A stretch of 6,556 nt of DNA, taken from contig JAMOQH010000161.1 in the NCBI GenBank assembly GCA_027064085.1, positions 1 to 6,556 on the forward strand. Reading direction: 5' to 3'. The position numbers and the translations under genes are program-made. The notes under the pieces are model-generated. The model made no database searches, was not told the origin of the DNA, and saw only the letters and a program-made list of their open reading frames with translations. Below, piece after piece: positions 1 through 6,556 of this stretch; positions within the stretch are counted from its first letter, which is position 1; every line of letters starts with the position of its first letter. The stretch comes from a bacterium. GTDB lineage: Bacteria > UBP6 > JAFGXH01.

Positions 1-391
1 TTTTATTTACATATTCTTCCCAGCGAGTAAGCATAAAAAAACTTGAAGCAAAAATATCTATTCCACAGGTTATAGTGATTGGTGATTGGTGATTGGTGAT
101 TAGTTTATTTGTGCCATAAATTATAGGAATATTTTCTTCAACTATAAAATCATTATTTCCAAACTCTACTTTTTGAGGAATATTTTCCTTTTTTAAATAT
201 TCCAAATCTTTTGGACATTTATTAAAAAAATGGTCTTCTATTATTAACTTATTGCCGTTTTTTAAAATAATTTCATAATTTTTAGTATTTTTTATTTCTA
301 GCCGATAATCAAGTCCTAAAAATTCATTTAATAGAATATCAACAATGTATTTTCTTTCTTCAATATTGTTGTTTGGAATGATAATCTTCAT
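1..391 (-). CDS. DUF7033 polysaccharide deacetylase, N-terminal part (runs off window)
   Basis: An open frame starts at the ATG at 391 and is still open at position 1, giving 130 residues of the N-terminal region. The stretch ITCGIDIFASSFFMLTRWEE, near residues 107-126, is the signature I associate with the DUF7033 domain that precedes a NodB-like polysaccharide deacetylase domain in large two-domain proteins. The catalytic domain would lie outside the window, so the deacetylase activity is inferred from family architecture. The start overlaps the stop of the upstream ATP-grasp gene as ATGA, implying translational coupling, and the two probably act on the same glycan. Just before the signature, residues near 98-106 (LITNHQSPITIT region) are encoded by a GTGATTG heptamer array that does not look like ordinary family sequence yet keeps the frame. 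The family call is fairly firm; substrate is unknown. Confidence 0.82.
   Translation of the reverse strand, partial: MKIIIPNNNIEERKYIVDILLNEFLGLDYRLEIKNTKNYEIILKNGNKLIIEDHFFNKCPKDLEYLKKENIPQKVEFGNNDFIVEENIPIIYGTNKLITNHQSPITITCGIDIFASSFFMLTRWEEYVNK
75..102. repeat. Heptamer tandem array inside the DUF7033 coding sequence
   Basis: Four tandem 7-nt units are present: GTGATTG three times exactly, then GTGATTA. The array lies inside the deacetylase reading frame. On the coding strand it yields the polar stretch NHQSPIT, immediately before the conserved TCGIDIFASSFF signature, and the frame stays open on both sides. Confidence 0.92.
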
Positions 392-1404
392 TTTAATAGC
401 CTTTTTAAAAACTTTTGAATAAATTTTGGAACAATTTTTTTTAATAAAACAAACCCAATATAACAATACCCGTTTTCTATTATAAATTTATTAGCATTTT
501 TTATATATTTTAAATTTTTTACAATGCTTATTAAATTATATTGCAAATAACGCTCTACAAAAACAATTTTTTTCGCTTTTTCAGTTTTATATTTAATACC
601 CAATAAATAATATAAGAAATTCGCATTATTCATCAGCATAAATTCGATTGATGCCCAAAATTTTGCATTTATTTCCATAAAAACATAATCTTTTCTTTTA
701 TTACAATATTTAAATTCAACTAATCCCCACCCATCATAATTTAACTTTTTTAACAACTTCTTGGTATATTTTAATAATCTTTCATCATAAAAACTCTCTA
801 TCACAACCGCTGATCCGCCTTCTTCTGGATAACTAATAATTTCTTTATGTTGAAAAAAGGTAACAATTTCTCCATTTTTTGCCAAAAAACCCACACCATA
901 TGTTGAAGGAGTATTTATATATTCTTGGTATATAAGATTTGGATAACTTGGAATTTTATCAATATTTCTCGCTATTCCTCTTATTCCACCGCCATTTTCA
1001 AAATTTTCTTTATAAAAAATTGGGAAATTTACAATATCTTCCTTCTTACAAAATGTTTTTGGTATAGGAATATCTAAAGATTCAGCTATATTTAACATTT
1101 CCGGTTTATTATAAACAATAAGATTATGGTAAGAAAAAAATATTTCATTTTTATAACATAATTTTTTATAATTATCTGTTATGGAATAAGTACTTTTTGC
1201 TCCCATTGGAAAAATATAATCATATTCATTAAGTTCTATATTAGTAATATCACTAACAATTATTTCATCATAGTATTTTCTATTAATAAAAGCTCTTTTT
1301 TCTTCCAAAACTCCTATAATATAATAATCGCTATATTTTTTTATATATTTCGCAATAGCCAATGCCTGATTTGAATATGGTTCAAATATAAGAATTTTTT
1401 TCAT
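388..1404 (-). CDS. ATP-grasp superfamily enzyme (carboxylate-amine ligase-like)
   Basis: This 338-residue protein begins with a Rossmann-like pre-ATP-grasp segment ([20 protein letters not shown]) and continues into an ATP-grasp fold. Visible elements are a nucleotide-binding loop region rich in glycine (NFENGGGIRGIA, about 134-145), a hinge-like LIYQEYI (158-163), GWGLVEFKY (225-233), and a metal-binding MEINAKFWASIEF (243-255) in which E244 and N246 match the usual Mg-ATP ligands. Family members join a carboxylate to an amine or other nucleophile through an acyl-phosphate. In polysaccharide loci they are thought to modify sugars or add amino acids, but the substrate cannot be read here. 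The start overlaps the methyltransferase stop as ATGA and has no strong Shine-Dalgarno of its own, so it probably depends on coupling. The C-terminal tail (about 290-338) is basic and hydrophobic and may touch the membrane. Confidence 0.87.
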   Translation of the reverse strand: MKKILIFEPYSNQALAIAKYIKKYSDYYIIGVLEEKRAFINRKYYDEIIVSDITNIELNEYDYIFPMGAKSTYSITDNYKKLCYKNEIFFSYHNLIVYNKPEMLNIAESLDIPIPKTFCKKEDIVNFPIFYKENFENGGGIRGIARNIDKIPSYPNLIYQEYINTPSTYGVGFLAKNGEIVTFFQHKEIISYPEEGGSAVVIESFYDERLLKYTKKLLKKLNYDGWGLVEFKYCNKRKDYVFMEINAKFWASIEFMLMNNANFLYYLLGIKYKTEKAKKIVFVERYLQYNLISIVKNLKYIKNANKFIIENGYCYIGFVLLKKIVPKFIQKFLKRLLK

Positions 1405-2123
1405 TTATCTAACTCTACAACACAACAAATTCTTTCAGTATGTTCCCATTTTTGCAATTGACACAATTTAGGAACTAAAAATTCTGAAAAAGGATACATC
1501 ACATTAGGAATTATTTTCTTTATTCTTTTTTTATAAAAAATATCTACCAAACCACCAAATTTTAATATTTTTATATTTTTATATTTTATTTTACTATCTT
1601 TCACTATCTGCAGAATTTCATTTTTATCAAAAAACCTAATATTATACAAATCATCATATTTTGATTTTTCTTTGAAAATCTTTTTAAGTTTTTGATTTTT
1701 AACATTATGAACAAATATAACAATATATTTTCGAGACACCCTTTCTTGCTCTTTTAACATTTTAAATATATCTTCATTATTATTAAAGCAAATAAAAAAT
1801 CCATTATGAAATACTAAATCAAAACTATTATCTTTAAATGACAACCTAAAAGCATCTTCGATAGAATATTTTAATTTATCATTTGGAAATCTCTCTTTTT
1901 GCAAATATTTTATTGTCTTTTCATCAAAATCACTTCCAGTTGCCTCATAACCATTATATGCTAAATATCTACTATCTCTGCAACTCCCTCCAGCAATTTC
2001 TAAAACAGATTTAACATCTTTAAAATAATTTTTAATAAAAATTCCCACTCTTGGAGGAGATTTAAGATACTCATCTAAATGCTTTTGCCAAGTATTTTGC
2101 CAAAACTTTTTTTCATTGTTCAT
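1401..2123 (-). CDS. Class I SAM-dependent methyltransferase
   Basis: This is a 240-residue cytoplasmic enzyme. The SAM-binding motif I reads [17 protein letters not shown] (39-55), ending in a glycine-rich loop. The acidic residue closing the second strand lies in GSDFDE (63-68), and a motif II-like [20 protein letters not shown] follows (88-107). These are features of the Methyltransf_11/25-type fold. It probably methylates a sugar or a sugar-linked group, because it sits between an acyltransferase and an ATP-grasp enzyme in a glycan operon; the acceptor cannot be predicted. The start is supported by AAGGAG at 2129-2134, 5 nt upstream of the ATG. The first 11 nt overlap the end of the acyltransferase gene in another frame, and the last 4 nt overlap the ATP-grasp start. 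The C-terminal CCVVE is slightly unusual but the length is normal for the family. Confidence 0.9.
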
Positions 2124-2652
2124 ATTTACTCCTTATTACTTTTGCTGGATTTCCAACTATAATACTACCTTGTTTTAAAAAAGATTTAGTTACAACTGCT
2201 CCGGCTCCTATTACACAATCATCTGCTATTTCAACACCTGGCAATATTACTGCATTAGCACCTATCCATACATTATTGCCAATTTTTATAGGTTTACTTT
2301 TAACATGTTTACTATAATCATAAATATCATGATTAGCACCTATAATTTTTACCCCTGGAGCAATATATACATTATCACCAAATTCTATTCCATTCATTCC
2401 ATTAATATAAATACCCGGCATCATTCCAGGAGTTGCTAAATATCCAGTTTTTATATTGCCACTCACTACTGATGTAAAATGAACAGGCCAAGGAATTTTT
2501 CTTGCTCCATTTATATTTAAAATTTTTTGAGGAATGATATATTTTACAGTAGCAAAGGCATTCCAATCAGACAATTCCTTTTTTTGAGGGTAAAAAACAT
2601 ATATTAACAATTTACAAAAAAAATAAAAAACCTTTCTTAAAAAATTTTTCAT
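2113..2652 (-). CDS. Hexapeptide-repeat (left-handed beta-helix) O-acyltransferase
   Basis: This 179-residue protein carries the repeated [LIV]-G-x4 pattern of a left-handed beta-helix, seen in [15 protein letters not shown] (89-103), [20 protein letters not shown] (121-140) and [12 protein letters not shown] (146-157). The end, [11 protein letters not shown], is typical of acetyltransferases of the WbbJ/CatB/DapH-related group. The probable catalytic histidine is H108 in [10 protein letters not shown]. The family acetylates sugar hydroxyl or amino groups with acetyl-CoA, usually as a trimer. The hydrophobic first 20 residues ([18 protein letters not shown]) may anchor it at the membrane next to lipid-linked glycan. 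Start choice is supported by GAGGTG at 2657-2662, 4 nt upstream. The ATG overlaps the flippase stop as ATGA. The acceptor sugar is unknown. Confidence 0.92.
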
Positions 2653-3923
2653 AATACACCTCTTGATAAAAAATAATAATAAACAATAAAAATTGCATAT
2701 TCCACACCCATTAAAACCGAATAAATAATTAGAAATTTTTCTACATTTAAGTTAAAATAAGCAGAAAACATTATACTTAGAATAGATGTTATCATTAATA
2801 CAATATTGATATATAATCCATTTTTGTTTTTTTCAAACACAACATTAACTATACTAAGAGTTGAACTTATAAATCTTATACAAAACCAGGGTACTAAAAT
2901 CTTAGCATAACTACCGGCTATTTCCCACTCTTTACCAAATATAAATGCGAATAAATCTTCAACTATAAAATATAAAAGTGCAAATGAGGGCATTGCTATC
3001 ATTAATAATTTTTTTAATGTAGAATTAAATGTTTTGATGGCTTTTCCAGTTTTATGCTTTTCTTTTGTGGCTTCTTCAAAAAATACTTGTCCAATAGAAC
3101 CACCTATTAATGACGAAGGCATTCCAAGCATTCTTTGAGCTAAACTATAAAATCCCAAAGTTTTCACGCTGTAAAAAGATGAAATCAAAATATTTGTTAA
3201 ATGAGTAGATAACATATTAGCTAAAACTGACCACATAGAAAACTTAGGAAAATCTCTATACCTTTTTCCTATTGCTATTATTTTAGCTTTTCTAATTCTC
3301 TCAAATAACTCTAATTTTTTAATATTAAAAAATAACTTCGTATTCGATATTATTTGAGAAAATATCTGTCCGCTAATAAGTCCTGCGGCTCCTGCTTTTA
3401 TAAAACCTAAACTTAACTGTACTATTGCCATACCAATGGATTTATATACATTTGCCCTTGCTAATTCCTTATAATGTTTGAGCCTGTTATTAAAATAGTT
3501 TAAAAGATTAAAGCAGCCAATCAAAAATACACTCAAAGGCACAAAGTAAAGCCATGGGCTTATATCCTTGTTATTAAGCAACAAAATTATTTTTCCATGA
3601 AATAATATCACAATAACAAGCAAAAATAGACTCAAGCATAAATTGATAATAAATCCTAAAGCCATTATGTTTATAGCATCTTCATCTTTTCTTGGAAGCA
3701 TTATTGCAAGTTCATACCTGCCGTTTGCTATACTTCCAAAAATAGATGTTATAGCTACAAAAAGAGCAAGCACACCAAAATCTTCAGGAGTATAAAGTCT
3801 TGTAAGAATAGGACTTATTGCAATAGGAATAGCCTGTGCAATAGTTGTGCCTGTCATTAGTGTCAACACATTTTTGGTAAATTCAGACTTTGGTTTTAGG
3901 TTGTTTAGTAATTTGTTATTCAT
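2649..3923 (-). CDS. wzx: Wzx-type oligosaccharide flippase
   Basis: This 424-residue protein is almost entirely hydrophobic segments, about twelve by eye, with short polar loops. It opens with the pattern [20 protein letters not shown] and then [15 protein letters not shown], characteristic of polysaccharide-transporter/MOP-family flippases. The conserved [16 protein letters not shown] and [17 protein letters not shown] follow. Members translocate undecaprenyl-diphosphate-linked glycan units across the cytoplasmic membrane. It is the first gene of a compact five-gene run; its stop overlaps the acyltransferase start by 4 nt. The start is odd: no Shine-Dalgarno is visible upstream of the ATG at 3923. 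The leader, and the first codons ([10 protein letters not shown]), have the same AATAAC/AACAA composition as the neighbouring repeat array. The family homology seems to begin near residue 13, so the first dozen residues may be array-derived. The gene symbol is by role only. Confidence 0.93.
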
Positions 3924-3980
3924 AGTAATTAGTTATTTATAGTTATTTGTGGTAATTTATTGTCATTCATTGTTGTTTAG
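3902..3980. repeat. Degenerate decamer array at the flippase start (left array)
   Basis: From about 3931 to 3980 the plus strand reads as consecutive 10-nt units of the form AGTTATTTRT with drift. Looser copies continue to about 3902, inside the first codons of the flippase gene. Positions 3933-3978 match the reverse complement of 4353-4398 at 39 of 46 positions, so this array and the one upstream of the four-helix-bundle gene form imperfect inverted repeats around it. The array contains the flippase ATG (3921-3923) and the last codons and TGA of the four-helix-bundle gene. It fills the 39-nt gap between them. Confidence 0.8.
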
Positions 3981-4334
3981 GTATTGTCTTTTTATTGAGT
4001 TTATGAAGTTATTTAGTTTTATTCCGAGTGTGTCTAATTTATCCTTTAGTAATCTGTATTTTTCTTTATCAATCAAGTTTCTATTTAGCAACAACTCTAA
4101 CCAATGCTTTGATTCAAATAATGAGCCTCTTGCATTGTAATAAAATTTCATTGAATCTCTGTAATGATAACGGCCAAATCCTTCGGCTATATTTGCACCA
4201 ATAGAATCAATTGACCTCAAAACTTGGTCACCCATATTAAATTTAAACTGTTTTGGCAATTGTAAATATATTTCCCAAATATCATTCGACGAACTCATAG
4301 CCAGCTTGTAAACTTCCAATTCTTCTAACCTCAT
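3963..4334 (-). CDS. Four-helix-bundle protein (23S rRNA IVS / bAvd-like family)
   Basis: From the ATG at 4334 the protein has 123 residues, the usual size for this family. It shows the family's start (RLEELEVYKLAM, aligned helix 1), the conserved QVLRSIDSIGANIAEGFGR (37-55) and FYYNARGSLFESKHWLELLL (64-83). Relatives are encoded within 23S rRNA intervening sequences, as stand-alone genes of unknown role, or as the accessory variability determinant of diversity-generating retroelements. Here there is no rRNA and no reverse transcriptase in view, so it is a stand-alone copy of unknown function, possibly nucleic-acid binding. A longer frame from TTG at 4361 would add nine residues (MLFVVGENE) drawn from repeat DNA; I prefer 4334 because homology begins there. 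A weak GGTG lies about 9 nt upstream. The C-terminal LNNNE and the TGA lie within the left array. Confidence 0.88.
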   Translation of the reverse strand: MRLEELEVYKLAMSSSNDIWEIYLQLPKQFKFNMGDQVLRSIDSIGANIAEGFGRYHYRDSMKFYYNARGSLFESKHWLELLLNRNLIDKEKYRLLKDKLDTLGIKLNNFINSIKRQYLNNNE

Positions 4335-4344
4335 CTCGTTTTCA

Positions 4345-4411
4345 CCAACAACAAATAACAACTAATTACAATAAATAACTACGAATAACTATAAATAATC
4401 GTAAACTACAA
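4345..4411. repeat. Degenerate decamer array upstream of the four-helix-bundle gene (right array)
   Basis: The minus strand reads as 10-nt units close to AGTTATTTAT and TGTTATTTGT. Positions 4353-4398 are an 85% inverted match (39/46) to 3933-3978 on the other side of the gene. The array occupies the region where the gene's promoter and leader would lie. The block ATAACTATAAAT on the plus strand here is shared with the array at 5680-5715. Confidence 0.8.
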
Positions 4412-4456
4412 AACAAACCTTCAAATATAAAACTTGACTTGTTTTCCTTTATATCC

Positions 4457-4488
4457 CACTTTATCACTCTATTACTTTACCACTTTAC
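4457..4488. repeat. Octamer tandem array downstream of the nucleotidyltransferase gene
   Basis: Four consecutive 8-nt units of consensus YACTYTAY are present on the plus strand, the last being CACTTTAC. The array lies just past the stop of the AbiEii-like gene (4499) and before the leader of the four-helix-bundle gene. I see no gene or stable hairpin in 4412-4498. Confidence 0.78.
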
Positions 4489-4498
4489 AATATATTGC

Positions 4499-5125
4499 TC
4501 ATAAAAACTCTTCCTTTATTCTCCGCTCAAAAAAACTTCTTATTTCATTTAAAGATAGTTTTTTTATAGGTTTTAAATAATCCAGTTTCTCATCTTCAAT
4601 ATCATCTATAAAAATCAAAGCACTTATAAATAATTTTAGATTAATTCCATCAAGAATATTTTGCGATAAATCAAAAATCTTTTTTAAACTAAAGTTTTGA
4701 GCCAAAAAATACAAATCATAATAGTCTCTGTATTTAGCCCTTAAAAACAAAACATTAACCTTCATAATTGCAATTTGTTCTAATGTTGCAACATTAAAAT
4801 TATCTATCTTTTTAGGTTTTAAAAAGCTCCATTTTGCATTAAAAAATGTAACCTTTACTTCATCTATAATAACATCTATCTGTTCATTGCTTATATTTAC
4901 TATCTCTTTATTTTTAAAGTTTTTAATTAATTGTAATATTTTCTCTTTGTCAAAACTATTTTCATAGGTAAAAAAATCTAAATCTTTACTTAATCTATGA
5001 CAAAGATGTAATGCTAAGGCGCTACCACCCACCAAAACAAAATTGTTCATATAATCATTTTTAATAAGCTCTTTTAATACTTTTCGAGCATTATTTAACA
5101 GACACTCTAACTTCAAATCTTCCAC
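4499..5125 (-). CDS. AbiEii/AbiGii-family nucleotidyltransferase (toxin-like)
   Basis: This 208-residue protein has the minimal nucleotidyltransferase signature FVLVGGSALALHLCHRLSKD (29-48) followed by LDFF. Residues G33-G34-S35 form the phosphate-binding loop, and D48 and D50 are the likely metal ligands. ATLEQIAIMKV (113-123) and AKYRDYYDLYFLAQ (130-143) match the conserved C-terminal part of the AbiEii/DUF1814 family. Known AbiEii proteins are type IV-like toxins that modify tRNA or other targets in phage defence. This copy is shorter than classical AbiEii (about 300 residues) but similar to many stand-alone relatives. It starts at GTG (5125) with AAAGGG about 7 nt upstream. It overlaps the 96-residue upstream gene by 35 nt in a different frame, which indicates tight coupling. 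Toxicity is inferred from family only. Confidence 0.88.
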   Translation of the reverse strand: MEDLKLECLLNNARKVLKELIKNDYMNNFVLVGGSALALHLCHRLSKDLDFFTYENSFDKEKILQLIKNFKNKEIVNISNEQIDVIIDEVKVTFFNAKWSFLKPKKIDNFNVATLEQIAIMKVNVLFLRAKYRDYYDLYFLAQNFSLKKIFDLSQNILDGINLKLFISALIFIDDIEDEKLDYLKPIKKLSLNEIRSFFERRIKEEFL

Positions 5126-5381
5126 TATTTAACCCTTTAAAATAATTGCTCTCCACATCCATATCAAAGAATATTCTTGCTATCATAAGACTTACTTTTA
5201 AAAATCTGTTATCCCCTGCCATATTTTTAAGCCAAATTTCTTTAATCTTTTCTTTATCAATTTTTTTGAACAGTTTTACAATATCTTCAAAGTCCCCATA
5301 TTTTAAAGTATGCTCAATTAAAGTAGCTTCATCTACTTTTGAATTTTTATTAATATTCCAAAAAATGTTATTCTTGGGCAT
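5091..5381 (-). CDS. Small DUF6922-like protein, probable partner of the AbiEii-like gene
   Basis: This is a 96-residue, lysine-rich, predicted helical protein. The pattern FWNINKNSKVDEATLIEHTL (7-26), then KYGDFEDIVKLFKKIDKEKI (27-46) and an aliphatic-aromatic tail ending ARIFFDMD, resembles the small DUF6922-type proteins (FWD...Y-G-D/T...) that often precede AbiEii-family nucleotidyltransferases. I infer it is the antitoxin-like or regulatory partner, because the genes overlap by 35 nt. No DNA-binding motif is obvious. AAGGAG at 5389-5394, 7 nt before the ATG, fixes the start at 5381 rather than at the out-of-frame ATG at 5385. The final residues (SGRFEVRVSVK) are encoded by the overlap and look less constrained. 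The family name is from memory and would need a profile search. Confidence 0.72.
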   Translation of the reverse strand: MPKNNIFWNINKNSKVDEATLIEHTLKYGDFEDIVKLFKKIDKEKIKEIWLKNMAGDNRFLKVSLMIARIFFDMDVESNYFKGLNSGRFEVRVSVK

Positions 5382-5388
5382 CCATTAG

Positions 5389-5394
5389 CTCCTT
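5389..5394 (-). promoter_or_regulatory. Ribosome binding site deciding the DUF6922-like start
   Basis: The minus strand reads AAGGAG here, 7 nt from the ATG at 5381. A competing ATG at 5385 is only 3 nt away and opens a five-codon frame, so 5381 is the functional start. Confidence 0.8.
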
Positions 5395-5402
5395 GGCAAT
5401 TT

Positions 5403-5501
5403 TTAGCCGCAGCCATTAATTCTTACCCTTTTTGCAGTTTCGCTTTCTTTATCAAAATAGCAAGACATAATATCTTTTATATTATGCTTTAACTCTTGCA
5501 T
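5403..5501 (-). CDS. Small ORF, 32 codons, unrecognised
   Basis: The frame begins MQELKHNIKDIMSCYFDKES and ends with KRVRINGCG before TAA. AAGGAG at 5507-5512 lies 5 nt before the ATG and overlaps the stop of the preceding small ORF, the spacing expected of a real coupled gene. The stop is 21 nt upstream of the DUF6922-like start. I do not recognise the peptide. It has two cysteines and a C-terminal Gly-Cys-Gly, no signal peptide and no membrane segment. It could be a leader peptide, a small antitoxin-like factor or the remnant of a longer gene. Composition matches its neighbours. Confidence 0.45.
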   Translation of the reverse strand: MQELKHNIKDIMSCYFDKESETAKRVRINGCG

Positions 5502-5506
5502 TGTTT

Positions 5507-5512
5507 CTCCTT
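5507..5512 (-). promoter_or_regulatory. Ribosome binding site of the 32-codon ORF
   Basis: The minus strand reads AAGGAG with a 5-nt spacer to the ATG at 5501. Two of its bases overlap the TAA of the 25-codon ORF, so re-initiation between the two small ORFs is plausible. Confidence 0.7.
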
Positions 5513-5588
5513 AAGTAAAAATTAGAAACCCTAAAGCTTTAGCCATAAATCCGTCTTCTGGGTCTATAAATATTATTTCTTTATCCAT
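5511..5588 (-). CDS. Small ORF, 25 codons, unrecognised
   Basis: The frame encodes a peptide beginning MDKEIIFIDPEDGF and ending in a hydrophobic ALGFLIFT. The purine-rich GGGAGGGG at 5592-5599, directly upstream of the ATG at 5588, is the strongest Shine-Dalgarno in the window. The frame ends 9 nt before the next small ORF. I do not recognise a family. It may be the N-terminal remnant of a decayed gene, or a short leader peptide whose translation sets the level of the genes downstream. Its existence rests on the ribosome binding site and spacing only. Confidence 0.42.
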   Translation of the reverse strand: MDKEIIFIDPEDGFMAKALGFLIFT

Positions 5589-5591
5589 TTA

Positions 5592-5599
5592 CCCCTCCC
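5592..5599 (-). promoter_or_regulatory. Strong Shine-Dalgarno before the 25-codon ORF
   Basis: The minus strand reads GGGAGGGG, ending 3 nt from the ATG at 5588 (core GGGAGG with a 5-nt spacer). It stands out in this AT-rich DNA and is the main support for translation starting in the otherwise gene-poor 5382-5694 stretch. No convincing -35/-10 pair was found in 5600-5694. Confidence 0.6.
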
Positions 5600-5643
5600 G
5601 TTGCTTTAAGTTTTGATTTTGCCAGGTTGCCACATATTCTCTG

Positions 5644-5671
5644 TTTTGTCTTTTACTTCTTACTTTCACAC
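5644..5671. repeat. Degenerate heptamer array upstream of the small-ORF cluster
   Basis: Four loose 7-nt units are visible on the plus strand (TTTTGTC, TTTTACT and relatives ending in TTCACAC). They lie between the aminotransferase stop and the first small ORF. The units are more diverged than those in the other arrays, so this is a weaker call. Confidence 0.5.
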
Positions 5672-5679
5672 TCACAACC

Positions 5680-5715
5680 AATAACTACAAATAACTATAA
5701 ATTACTATAAATTAC
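5680..5715. repeat. Decamer array at the aminotransferase stop
   Basis: Units of ATAACTACAA / ATAACTATAA / ATTACTATAA follow each other at 10-nt spacing. The minus-strand reading shares a 16-nt perfect block, ATTTATAGTTATTTGT, with the array at the flippase start (22/25 identity over 5680-5704), in the opposite orientation. The TAG stop of the aminotransferase (5695-5697) and its last residues lie within this array. Confidence 0.8.
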
Positions 5716-6556
5716 TTCTTTTACCCTATCCACTGTATAATTTATCTCTTCTTCTGCAAGATACGGATTCATAGGCAAACTCAATATTTCTTTGCTAACT
5801 TTTTCAGCTACCGGAAAATCTCCTTTTTTATATCCTAAATATTTAAAGCATTCCTGTAAATGCAATGGCATTGGGTAATGAATTGCAGTTGGAATACCAG
5901 CTTTTTTCAAAAGATTCTGGATTTTTTGCCTCAGCTCATCCACCTTTTGCCCTTTGCCTTTTACCTTTAGCCTTATACTATACTGTGCCCAAGCGCTTGT
6001 TCTATCGGGTTTGGTGAATGGGAGAATGAGTGGATGGGTGGATGAGTAAAAGGGAGTATGAGTAAATGAGTTAATGGGTTCATTAAATAAAGAATTAAAA
6101 AGTTTTGTATATGTTGAAGCTACCTGCTGGCGCTTTTGCAAGTCTTCTTTGTAATGTTTAAGTCTAACATTTAATACAGCGGCTTGAAGCGTATCTATTC
6201 TTGCATTTAGACCTATATATTTATGATGATATCGTTTGTTTTGGCCGTGAACTCTTATCATCTTTATCTTTTCTGCTAATTTGTCATTATTTGTTAAAAC
6301 TGCTCCACCATCTCCAAAGCAACCAAGAGGTTTTGCAGGAAAGAAGCTTGTTGTATAGATATCGCAGTAGTGCACTTCTGCTTTACCTTTATATGTTGCA
6401 CCAAAGGATTGAGCGCCATCGACGATTAAGTAGATGGGATGATGAGTGGATGAGTGGATGAGTGAATTTAGTTCGTCTAAATCACAAGGTTGACCAAATA
6501 GCGAGACGGCTACAATTGCTTTTGTTTTGTCTGTTATTTTTTCCTTAATTTTATTT
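5695..6556 (-). CDS. DegT/DnrJ/EryC1/StrS sugar aminotransferase, WbpE-like (N-terminus beyond window)
   Basis: The frame is open to the window edge and yields 286 residues; about 80 N-terminal residues are missing. The GTG at 6375 is internal, because upstream codons encode conserved family sequence (VAVSLFGQPCDLDEL, then IVDGAQSFGATYKG). Visible features are D46 and Q49 (numbering from the edge) for the pyridoxal ring, TTSFFPAKPLGCFGDGGAV with Schiff-base lysine K75, RVHGQNKRYHHKYIGLNARI, DTLQAAVL, AIHYPMPLHLQ and LSLPMNPYL. These resemble WbpE, which aminates a UDP-3-keto hexuronate, but closely related enzymes aminate at C4, so the sugar is not certain. The protein supplies an amino sugar for the glycan locus. 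Loops at about residues 34-40, between the central helix and LILPFTKPD, and at KVKGKGQKV are longer than I recall for the family. Each coincides with a tandem array in the DNA. Confidence 0.92.
   Translation of the reverse strand, partial: NKIKEKITDKTKAIVAVSLFGQPCDLDELNSLIHSSTHHPIYLIVDGAQSFGATYKGKAEVHYCDIYTTSFFPAKPLGCFGDGGAVLTNNDKLAEKIKMIRVHGQNKRYHHKYIGLNARIDTLQAAVLNVRLKHYKEDLQKRQQVASTYTKLFNSLFNEPINSFTHTPFYSSTHPLILPFTKPDRTSAWAQYSIRLKVKGKGQKVDELRQKIQNLLKKAGIPTAIHYPMPLHLQECFKYLGYKKGDFPVAEKVSKEILSLPMNPYLAEEEINYTVDRVKEVIYSNL
5943..5977. repeat. Heptamer array inside the aminotransferase gene
   Basis: Five 7-nt units of consensus CCTTTTG (drifting to CCCTTTG, CCTTTTA, CCTTTAG) are present. In the coding frame they give the Lys/Gly-rich loop KVKGKGQKV between the conserved QYSIR strand and the helix leading to AIHYPMP. 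Confidence 0.82.
6024..6079. repeat. Octamer array inside the aminotransferase gene (large loop)
   Basis: Seven consecutive 8-nt units of the form NNATGRGT are present (GGATGAGT, AAATGAGT, TAATGGGT and so on), with one diverged unit at 6048-6055. The coding strand gives the Ser/Thr/His/Pro-rich segment INSFTHTPFYSSTHP, just before LILPFTKPD. The reading frame is kept. Confidence 0.88.
6441..6464. repeat. Perfect octamer triplet inside the aminotransferase gene
   Basis: GATGAGTG occurs three times in tandem without change. The 24 nt equal eight codons and encode the HSSTHH region just before the IVDGAQSFG strand. The unit matches GGATGAGT of the 6024-6079 array shifted by one base, so both arrays appear to come from the same oligomer type. 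Confidence 0.92.

Follow-up and report, generated by a model that had tools for sequence, protein, structure and literature searches.

How did three tandem arrays of 7- and 8-nt units come to lie in frame within a single sugar aminotransferase gene? The gene lies in the window that we analysed, the entire 6556-base contig (C161) of a MAG of 195 contigs and 3.65 Mb. An earlier note on this DNA had placed the three arrays in one open frame, which lies on the minus strand, and both the coordinates and the lag matches agree with that description (Table 1). It had also described the protein as longer than its WbpE relatives in the loops concerned, and this comparison proved right: WbpE (3nyu/3nu7) is the best solved match of the aminotransferase (E 2e-57), and WbpE and its relatives are also the best structural matches. 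The frame is open and runs off the contig end, and the catalytic (PLP) lysine in SFFPAKPLG and the other invariant columns are intact; the gene, as had been claimed, does not look decayed. We shuffled the codons of this ORF 2000 times and allowed five periods: no shuffle attained the value of either octamer array, and 0.4% attained that of the heptamer array. The window also has a further heptamer array (75-101) and three 10-mer arrays, to which the earlier note does not refer.

Table 1 Features of the window (contig C161, positions 1 to 6556)
Feature	Position	Strand	Description
Heptamer array GTGATTG, perfect	75-101		In frame in ORF 2-466; encodes ITNHQSPITIT; near-copy on contig C162
10-nt-unit array (TAGTTATTTA)	3930-3979		Downstream side of IVP gene
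PF05635 gene (S23p, 23S rRNA intervening-sequence protein, IVP; four-helix bundle)	3963-4361	minus	E 1.2e-29; likely start ATG 4334
10-nt-unit array (AATAACTATA/AACAACAAAT)	4347-4398		Upstream side of IVP gene; reverse complement of 3930-3979
Solo array, 10-nt unit of the window's IVP element	5674-5716		Overlaps 3' end of aminotransferase gene; resembles C66 10399-10455
DegT/DnrJ/EryC1/StrS (WbpE-type) sugar aminotransferase, 286 aa	5695-6555	minus	PF01041 E 4e-64; N-terminal part off contig end
Site S3, CCTTTTG-type heptamer array, imperfect	5943-5977 (TRF 5943-5974)		20/28 lag-7 matches; encodes KVKGKGQKV
Site S2, octamer array NNATGRGT, degenerate	6024-6079 (TRF 6013-6079)		31/48 lag-8 matches (6024-6079); encodes NSFTHTPFYSSTHPLIL
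Site S1, octamer array GATGAGTG x3, perfect	6441-6464		16/16 lag-8 matches; encodes HSSTHHP

We called insertions by alignment with 29 homologues from relative genomes, about 40 closer homologues and WbpE. The array at S1 corresponds to an insertion of +3 aa before VDGAQ, that at S2 to about +17 aa before SAWAQY and that at S3 to +10 aa after YSIRLK. An AlphaFold model (mean pLDDT 77) predicts S1 at residues 36-41, between a helix (26-35) and a strand (42-46), S2 in the loop past the long helix 122-156, and S3 at residues 197-204, between a strand (192-196) and a helix (205-218). All three arrays run in a single direction, and folding of those at S1 and S2 against shuffles gave no hairpin of note.

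The same loops are occupied by heptamer arrays in many, mainly Campylobacterota, homologues, with units that differ from those of the window: AATCACT (S1, L079), CCTTCAA (S3, L088), AGTTAAG (S2, L097) and GAAGGCA (S1, L111). Many of these arrays are short and single-direction, such as the one encoding the insert peptide SEELRVKSEEL in L097; in L082, L084, L087 and L111 two arrays in inverted orientation make up the insert. Folded against shuffles, the S2 pairs of L084 and L082 form strong hairpins (z -5.9 and z -4.5, respectively), and the S1 pair of L111 gives only z -2.1. As the units in a given loop change so much from one lineage to another, what recurs is the site and the array form, not one sequence. 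The three loops are permissive sites that have been struck repeatedly, and not places reached by the spread of a single sequence.

Two expectations of the earlier note were borne out in part. It had read the octamer sites as the spread of a specific sequence; the two do have a unit in common, and units between sites of one locus are more alike than units between loci (9.9 vs 7.8, permutation p = 0.011), whereas other lineages hold different units in the same loops. It had further expected that insertion would be contradicted by homologues whose DNA in these loops is unrelated. Unrelated DNA is indeed found there, but it is again repeat DNA, marking permissive insertion sites and leaving insertion standing. 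The bin offers a separate example at S2. A different palindromic element (CACCCCTCC...GAGGGG), present at six places in the bin including contigs C130 and C25, occurs in L033 (G000 C167 24767-24784) and lies in frame at the S2 loop of the bin's own paralogous aminotransferase, with the peptide ITHPSKHKFATPPERGLEP; S2 thus tolerates unrelated selfish DNA. Long heptamer arrays are also seen outside long ORFs, as in Thiomicrospira microaerophila, where GTGAAGA arrays reach up to 14 units (L115 7923-7967 and 8995-9091).

Unrelated units in the same loops of different lineages would also be expected if the arrays were born locally, that is, if pseudo-repeats in AT-rich loops grew by slippage and were kept where three units (21 or 24 nt) hold the frame and the loop tolerates them, the PF05635 genes considered below being a separate matter. 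Many of the arrays are short and run in one direction, as such an origin would have it. Three observations fit it poorly. Related loci show a strict bias to period 7 over periods 5, 6 and 8-13. Units are common to the sites of one locus, as given above, and are no closer to the host site than to other sites (p 0.20). Finally, inverted pairs within ORFs are not products of simple slippage, and such pairs within one ORF (at most 150 nt; 4-44 nt apart) number 11 in 944 kb of related loci; 696 kb drawn at random from other genomes and 501 kb of the bin contained none. We lean against slippage as the explanation of the arrays as a whole, while allowing it a substantial chance; for the window's own single-direction arrays it is a serious rival. 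Copying of the unit from the target is appealing at single sites (AAGGT in L084, the flippase start) and failed a permutation test (the p 0.20 given above).

Whether the arrays belong to the genome into which the contig was binned is a further question. We examined the bin (G000) by sampled stretches covering 501 kb of its other contigs and found, at the threshold used, no period-7 or period-8 arrays; none of 60 relatives of the binned genome has a GTGATTR array. On both counts the arrays appear not to be native to the bin's lineage. The sampled contigs (L034-L052) are instead full of repeats of period 12, 15 and 21, all multiples of 3 and quite unlike those of the window. The earlier note had proposed a genome-wide count of the octamer arrays. 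The unit proved to be confined to the window: the GATGAGTG array is present in this window alone within the genome, so that genome-wide spread of the unit was rejected, and since GATGAGTGGATGAGTG has no further occurrence in the 3.65 Mb it is not a genome-wide family. The closest homologues of the aminotransferase come mostly from Campylobacterota MAGs, at no more than 68% identity, which is why C161 may be foreign to its bin; its composition, at the 86th percentile, does not decide foreign origin. Positions 1-294 of C161 overlap positions 1-293 of contig C162 (L059) at 98.3%, and contig C66 (L060) has a flippase start in common with C161 (86% identical). Given this 293-nt overlap at 98% and the common flippase start, the three contigs are probably parts of a single polysaccharide region, which was acquired by horizontal transfer or else mis-binned.

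This setting raises the suspicion that the arrays are an artefact of assembly or binning, or mark a decayed gene, as the window is a whole 6.5-kb MAG contig whose array density is unmatched in 501 kb of the same bin and whose closest homologues point to a possibly foreign source. A foreign origin would nonetheless leave the arrays real, the ORF is open with all catalytic motifs, the same architecture is present in finished plasmids, and period-7 arrays occur in single-contig genomes. The artefact reading is largely refuted by these observations, and we regard it as very improbable.

The overlap of C161 and C162 also bears on the possibility of a contingency locus, in which gain and loss of 7- or 8-nt units would, under selection, toggle expression of a surface-polysaccharide gene or alter its loops. 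Short repeats are known to serve phase variation of surface genes (PMC4692102), and both the location in a polysaccharide cluster and unit lengths that are not multiples of 3 are in keeping with such a role. Most of the arrays are imperfect, however (20/28 and 31/48 lag matches), and are poor slippage substrates for that reason; arrays are also found at N- and C-termini and between genes. The sole strain-like pair available, the neighbouring heptamer array on C161 and C162, keeps its unit number: four substitutions separate the overlapping ends, two of them inside the 28-nt array. We therefore consider a contingency locus improbable, and the suggestion in the earlier note that the repeats are a route to rapid loop variation found no support in this pair.

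A different explanation is suggested by a neighbouring gene, whose connection with arrays had escaped the earlier note. The window contains a PF05635 gene, 1.3 kb from the aminotransferase, whose flanking arrays of a 10-nt unit are 85% reverse-complementary over 46 nt and form terminal inverted repeats capable of a stem. No rRNA was found in the window around this gene. The flippase start common to C161 and C66 is immediately preceded by a PF05635 element on each contig, and the two elements are different, one having 10-mer units (window 2649-3979) and the other 8-mer units (C66 1-489). Positions 4499-5381, which lie between the IVP gene and the aminotransferase, hold an AbiEii-type nucleotidyltransferase (PF08843) with a small partner ORF (5091-5381), likely a type IV toxin-antitoxin-like pair.

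We asked how often PF05635 genes are bracketed by arrays that share one period and in which the right array is the reverse complement of the left. Such same-unit inverted arrays bracket 39/54 PF05635 genes and 0/626 control ORFs of similar size. The period is 7 in 35 of the 39, 8 in two, 9 in one and 10 in one, the window's own. In a second set, drawn from named genomes of other groups, 12/24 PF05635 genes were bracketed; periods 5, 6, 11 and 12 were also permitted in that run, and none of them was used. Both samples consist of the best-scoring matches per genome, not of a random draw, and about a third to a half of the PF05635 genes have no detectable array pair. The array unit is private to each element, and swapping flanks between loci lowers the median score from 22 for own pairs to 13. 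A plain inverted-repeat score around PF05635 genes, also tried, separated them only moderately from controls, as terminators and AT-rich flanks score too; the demand for arrays of one period on either side of the gene excluded every control. Bracketed genes are present on finished replicons of Riemerella, Calothrix, Pseudanabaena galeata and Azospirillum lipoferum (AZO_p2), so that the pattern is not an effect of assembly. The Azospirillum gene (L214) lies inside the 23S rRNA, as a classical IVS with the heptamer stem AGAGGAC GGATGAC AGAGGAC GGAGGAC; it is the only rRNA setting that we met, with none among 40 other PF05635 loci examined. Among three orthologues S23p shows dN/dS of 0.12-0.20, that is, purifying selection. 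On the Pseudanabaena galeata plasmid pPg_01 (L211) a CRISPR operon has, between its cas6 and cas4 genes, a PF05635 element whose long arrays are of the unit AAAAGCT, and CRISPR repeats lie within about 1.5 kb of three further PF05635 loci (L183, L195 and L206).

Filled and empty versions of one site can be compared in a Campylobacterota polysaccharide operon, at the point where a gene ending HPFC(K)KV meets an acyltransferase starting FVHESSYID. The two genes are directly joined, with no element, in more than 15 homologous loci; the junction is filled by an IVP element in L081, L082, L084, L087 and L089 and by a decayed element in L088. The units are AAGGTRG in three loci, AAGTTNN in L082, TTGGTTN in L089 and TTTTTGG in L088, and since they differ among loci there has probably been more than one insertion. 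In the filled state the upstream protein takes its C-terminal tail from the left array, and the downstream protein takes its N-terminus from the right array (MNPSTFYLHPSSYVDD in L087). Contig C66 carries two IVP gene copies, 96.6% identical, which have the right array in common and diverge past it, an indication that gene and arrays travel together. We saw no transposition event at the PF05635 elements and established no target-site duplication.

Several observations connect arrays inside genes with these elements. The array next to the IVP gene has its unit in common with arrays in the aminotransferase loops of the same locus: GAAGG in L081, L084 and L087, AAGTT in L082 and TTTTTGG/CCAAAAA in L088. 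Period-7 arrays were found in these loci in 21/36 genomes with PF05635 vs 9/38 without (p 0.004), a comparison that is not phylogeny-corrected and in which some loci include the IVP element itself. Random stretches hold about two period-7 arrays per 100 kb in IVP-bearing genomes vs none in 341 kb of IVP-free ones, again uncorrected for relatedness. PF05635 as a strict requirement for in-gene arrays is unsupported: several array-bearing genomes, which are incomplete MAGs, have no PF05635 match, and the existence of genomes with arrays and without PF05635 is what slippage would predict. In the window itself the in-gene arrays, with 7- and 8-nt units, differ in unit from the neighbouring 10-nt IVP element, which counts against their derivation from it.

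Because like repeats, in inverted pairs, bracket S23/IVP genes across many unrelated bacteria, those in the aminotransferase gene were probably left behind as scars by mobile elements of a little-known class. The complete form would consist of a PF05635/S23p gene of about 120 codons between two arrays of one 7-10 nt unit in opposite orientation; with this orientation its ends could pair into a stem, and with a unit that differs from element to element they would be conserved in form, not in sequence. Complete elements are found between neighbouring genes in protein-coding operons and, at least once, within 23S rRNA. Gene-less forms would be either a short inverted array pair in frame in an ORF or a solo array, persisting where the host tolerates added codons, at protein termini and in surface loops. 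The three aminotransferase arrays of the window would then be solo derivatives in three loops, near the complete element at 3930-4398. From the patterns described we infer movement, a role of S23p in it and the descent of solo arrays from paired ones. Taken as a whole, this proposal of an IVS-type class with inverted short-unit array ends, moving among protein-coding operons and leaving gene-less or solo derivatives tolerated in loops, is the most likely of the accounts considered and seems to us about evenly balanced between being right and being wrong.

The proposed class resembles several known systems in part. 23S rRNA intervening sequences with an S23p ORF are described in Coxiella, Leptospira and Xanthomonas and are considered selfish, and the stem of the Coxiella IVS is reported as 28 bp (PMC4990558). 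They share with our elements the PF05635 family and a single small ORF between stem-capable terminal inverted repeats; the elements here differ in lying in protein-coding operons, in building their stems from tandem 7-10 nt arrays with a unit for each element, and in having gene-less forms inside ORFs. Classical rRNA intervening sequences are placed at helix 25 or 45 of the 23S rRNA and are cut out of the transcript by RNase III. The aminotransferase likewise matches WbpE/DegT enzymes (3NU7, 3NYU) in fold, PLP lysine motif and overall sequence, and departs from them in its three loop insertions of repeat DNA. Rickettsia palindromic elements are selfish DNA that lies in frame in protein-coding genes, at positions where it is tolerated. 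This in-frame placement is common to both; the Rickettsia elements, however, are longer families with conserved sequence, whereas here the array form alone is conserved and different units occupy the same loops. The Rickettsia elements are mentioned, among other sources, in PMC2996958. Tandem heptamers have been described as GGGNATC in Xanthomonas and Nostoc (PMC4692102) and as TAACTGA in Beggiatoaceae and Cyanobacteria (PMC4679880), and PMC4692102 also cites a GTGATTA heptamer repeat in Helicobacter pylori. Such heptamer families (STRR, GGGNATC, TAACTGA) are similar in having few degenerate units, a patchy distribution, suspected horizontal transfer and no known mechanism. They are mainly intergenic, with one unit per genome, whereas here the unit varies by site, inverted pairs surround PF05635 genes and many arrays are in frame in ORFs.

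S23p intervening sequences have been known for over 25 years, and what they do and where they came from is still called unclear (PMC4990558); heptamer repeats are described as noticeably abundant in bacteria and little studied (PMC4692102). Among the open-licence papers searched, we found none that links S23p genes to heptamer arrays or reports the arrays or the operon setting. Our data connect these two subjects and yield a definition that can be tested, namely a PF05635 gene flanked on its two sides by inverted arrays of a short unit private to the element. Should the elements be mobile, the fact that their ends have no conserved sequence speaks against a transposase recognizing fixed termini, and another mechanism would be needed. 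More broadly, and with a confidence that falls somewhat short of even, PF05635/S23p may define a widespread mobile element with ends fixed in form, of which the rRNA intervening sequences would be no more than the most familiar insertions, and array formation may also leave gene-less footprints that add loops to proteins. If this is true, such footprints within genes would supply surface-polysaccharide enzymes with new loops.
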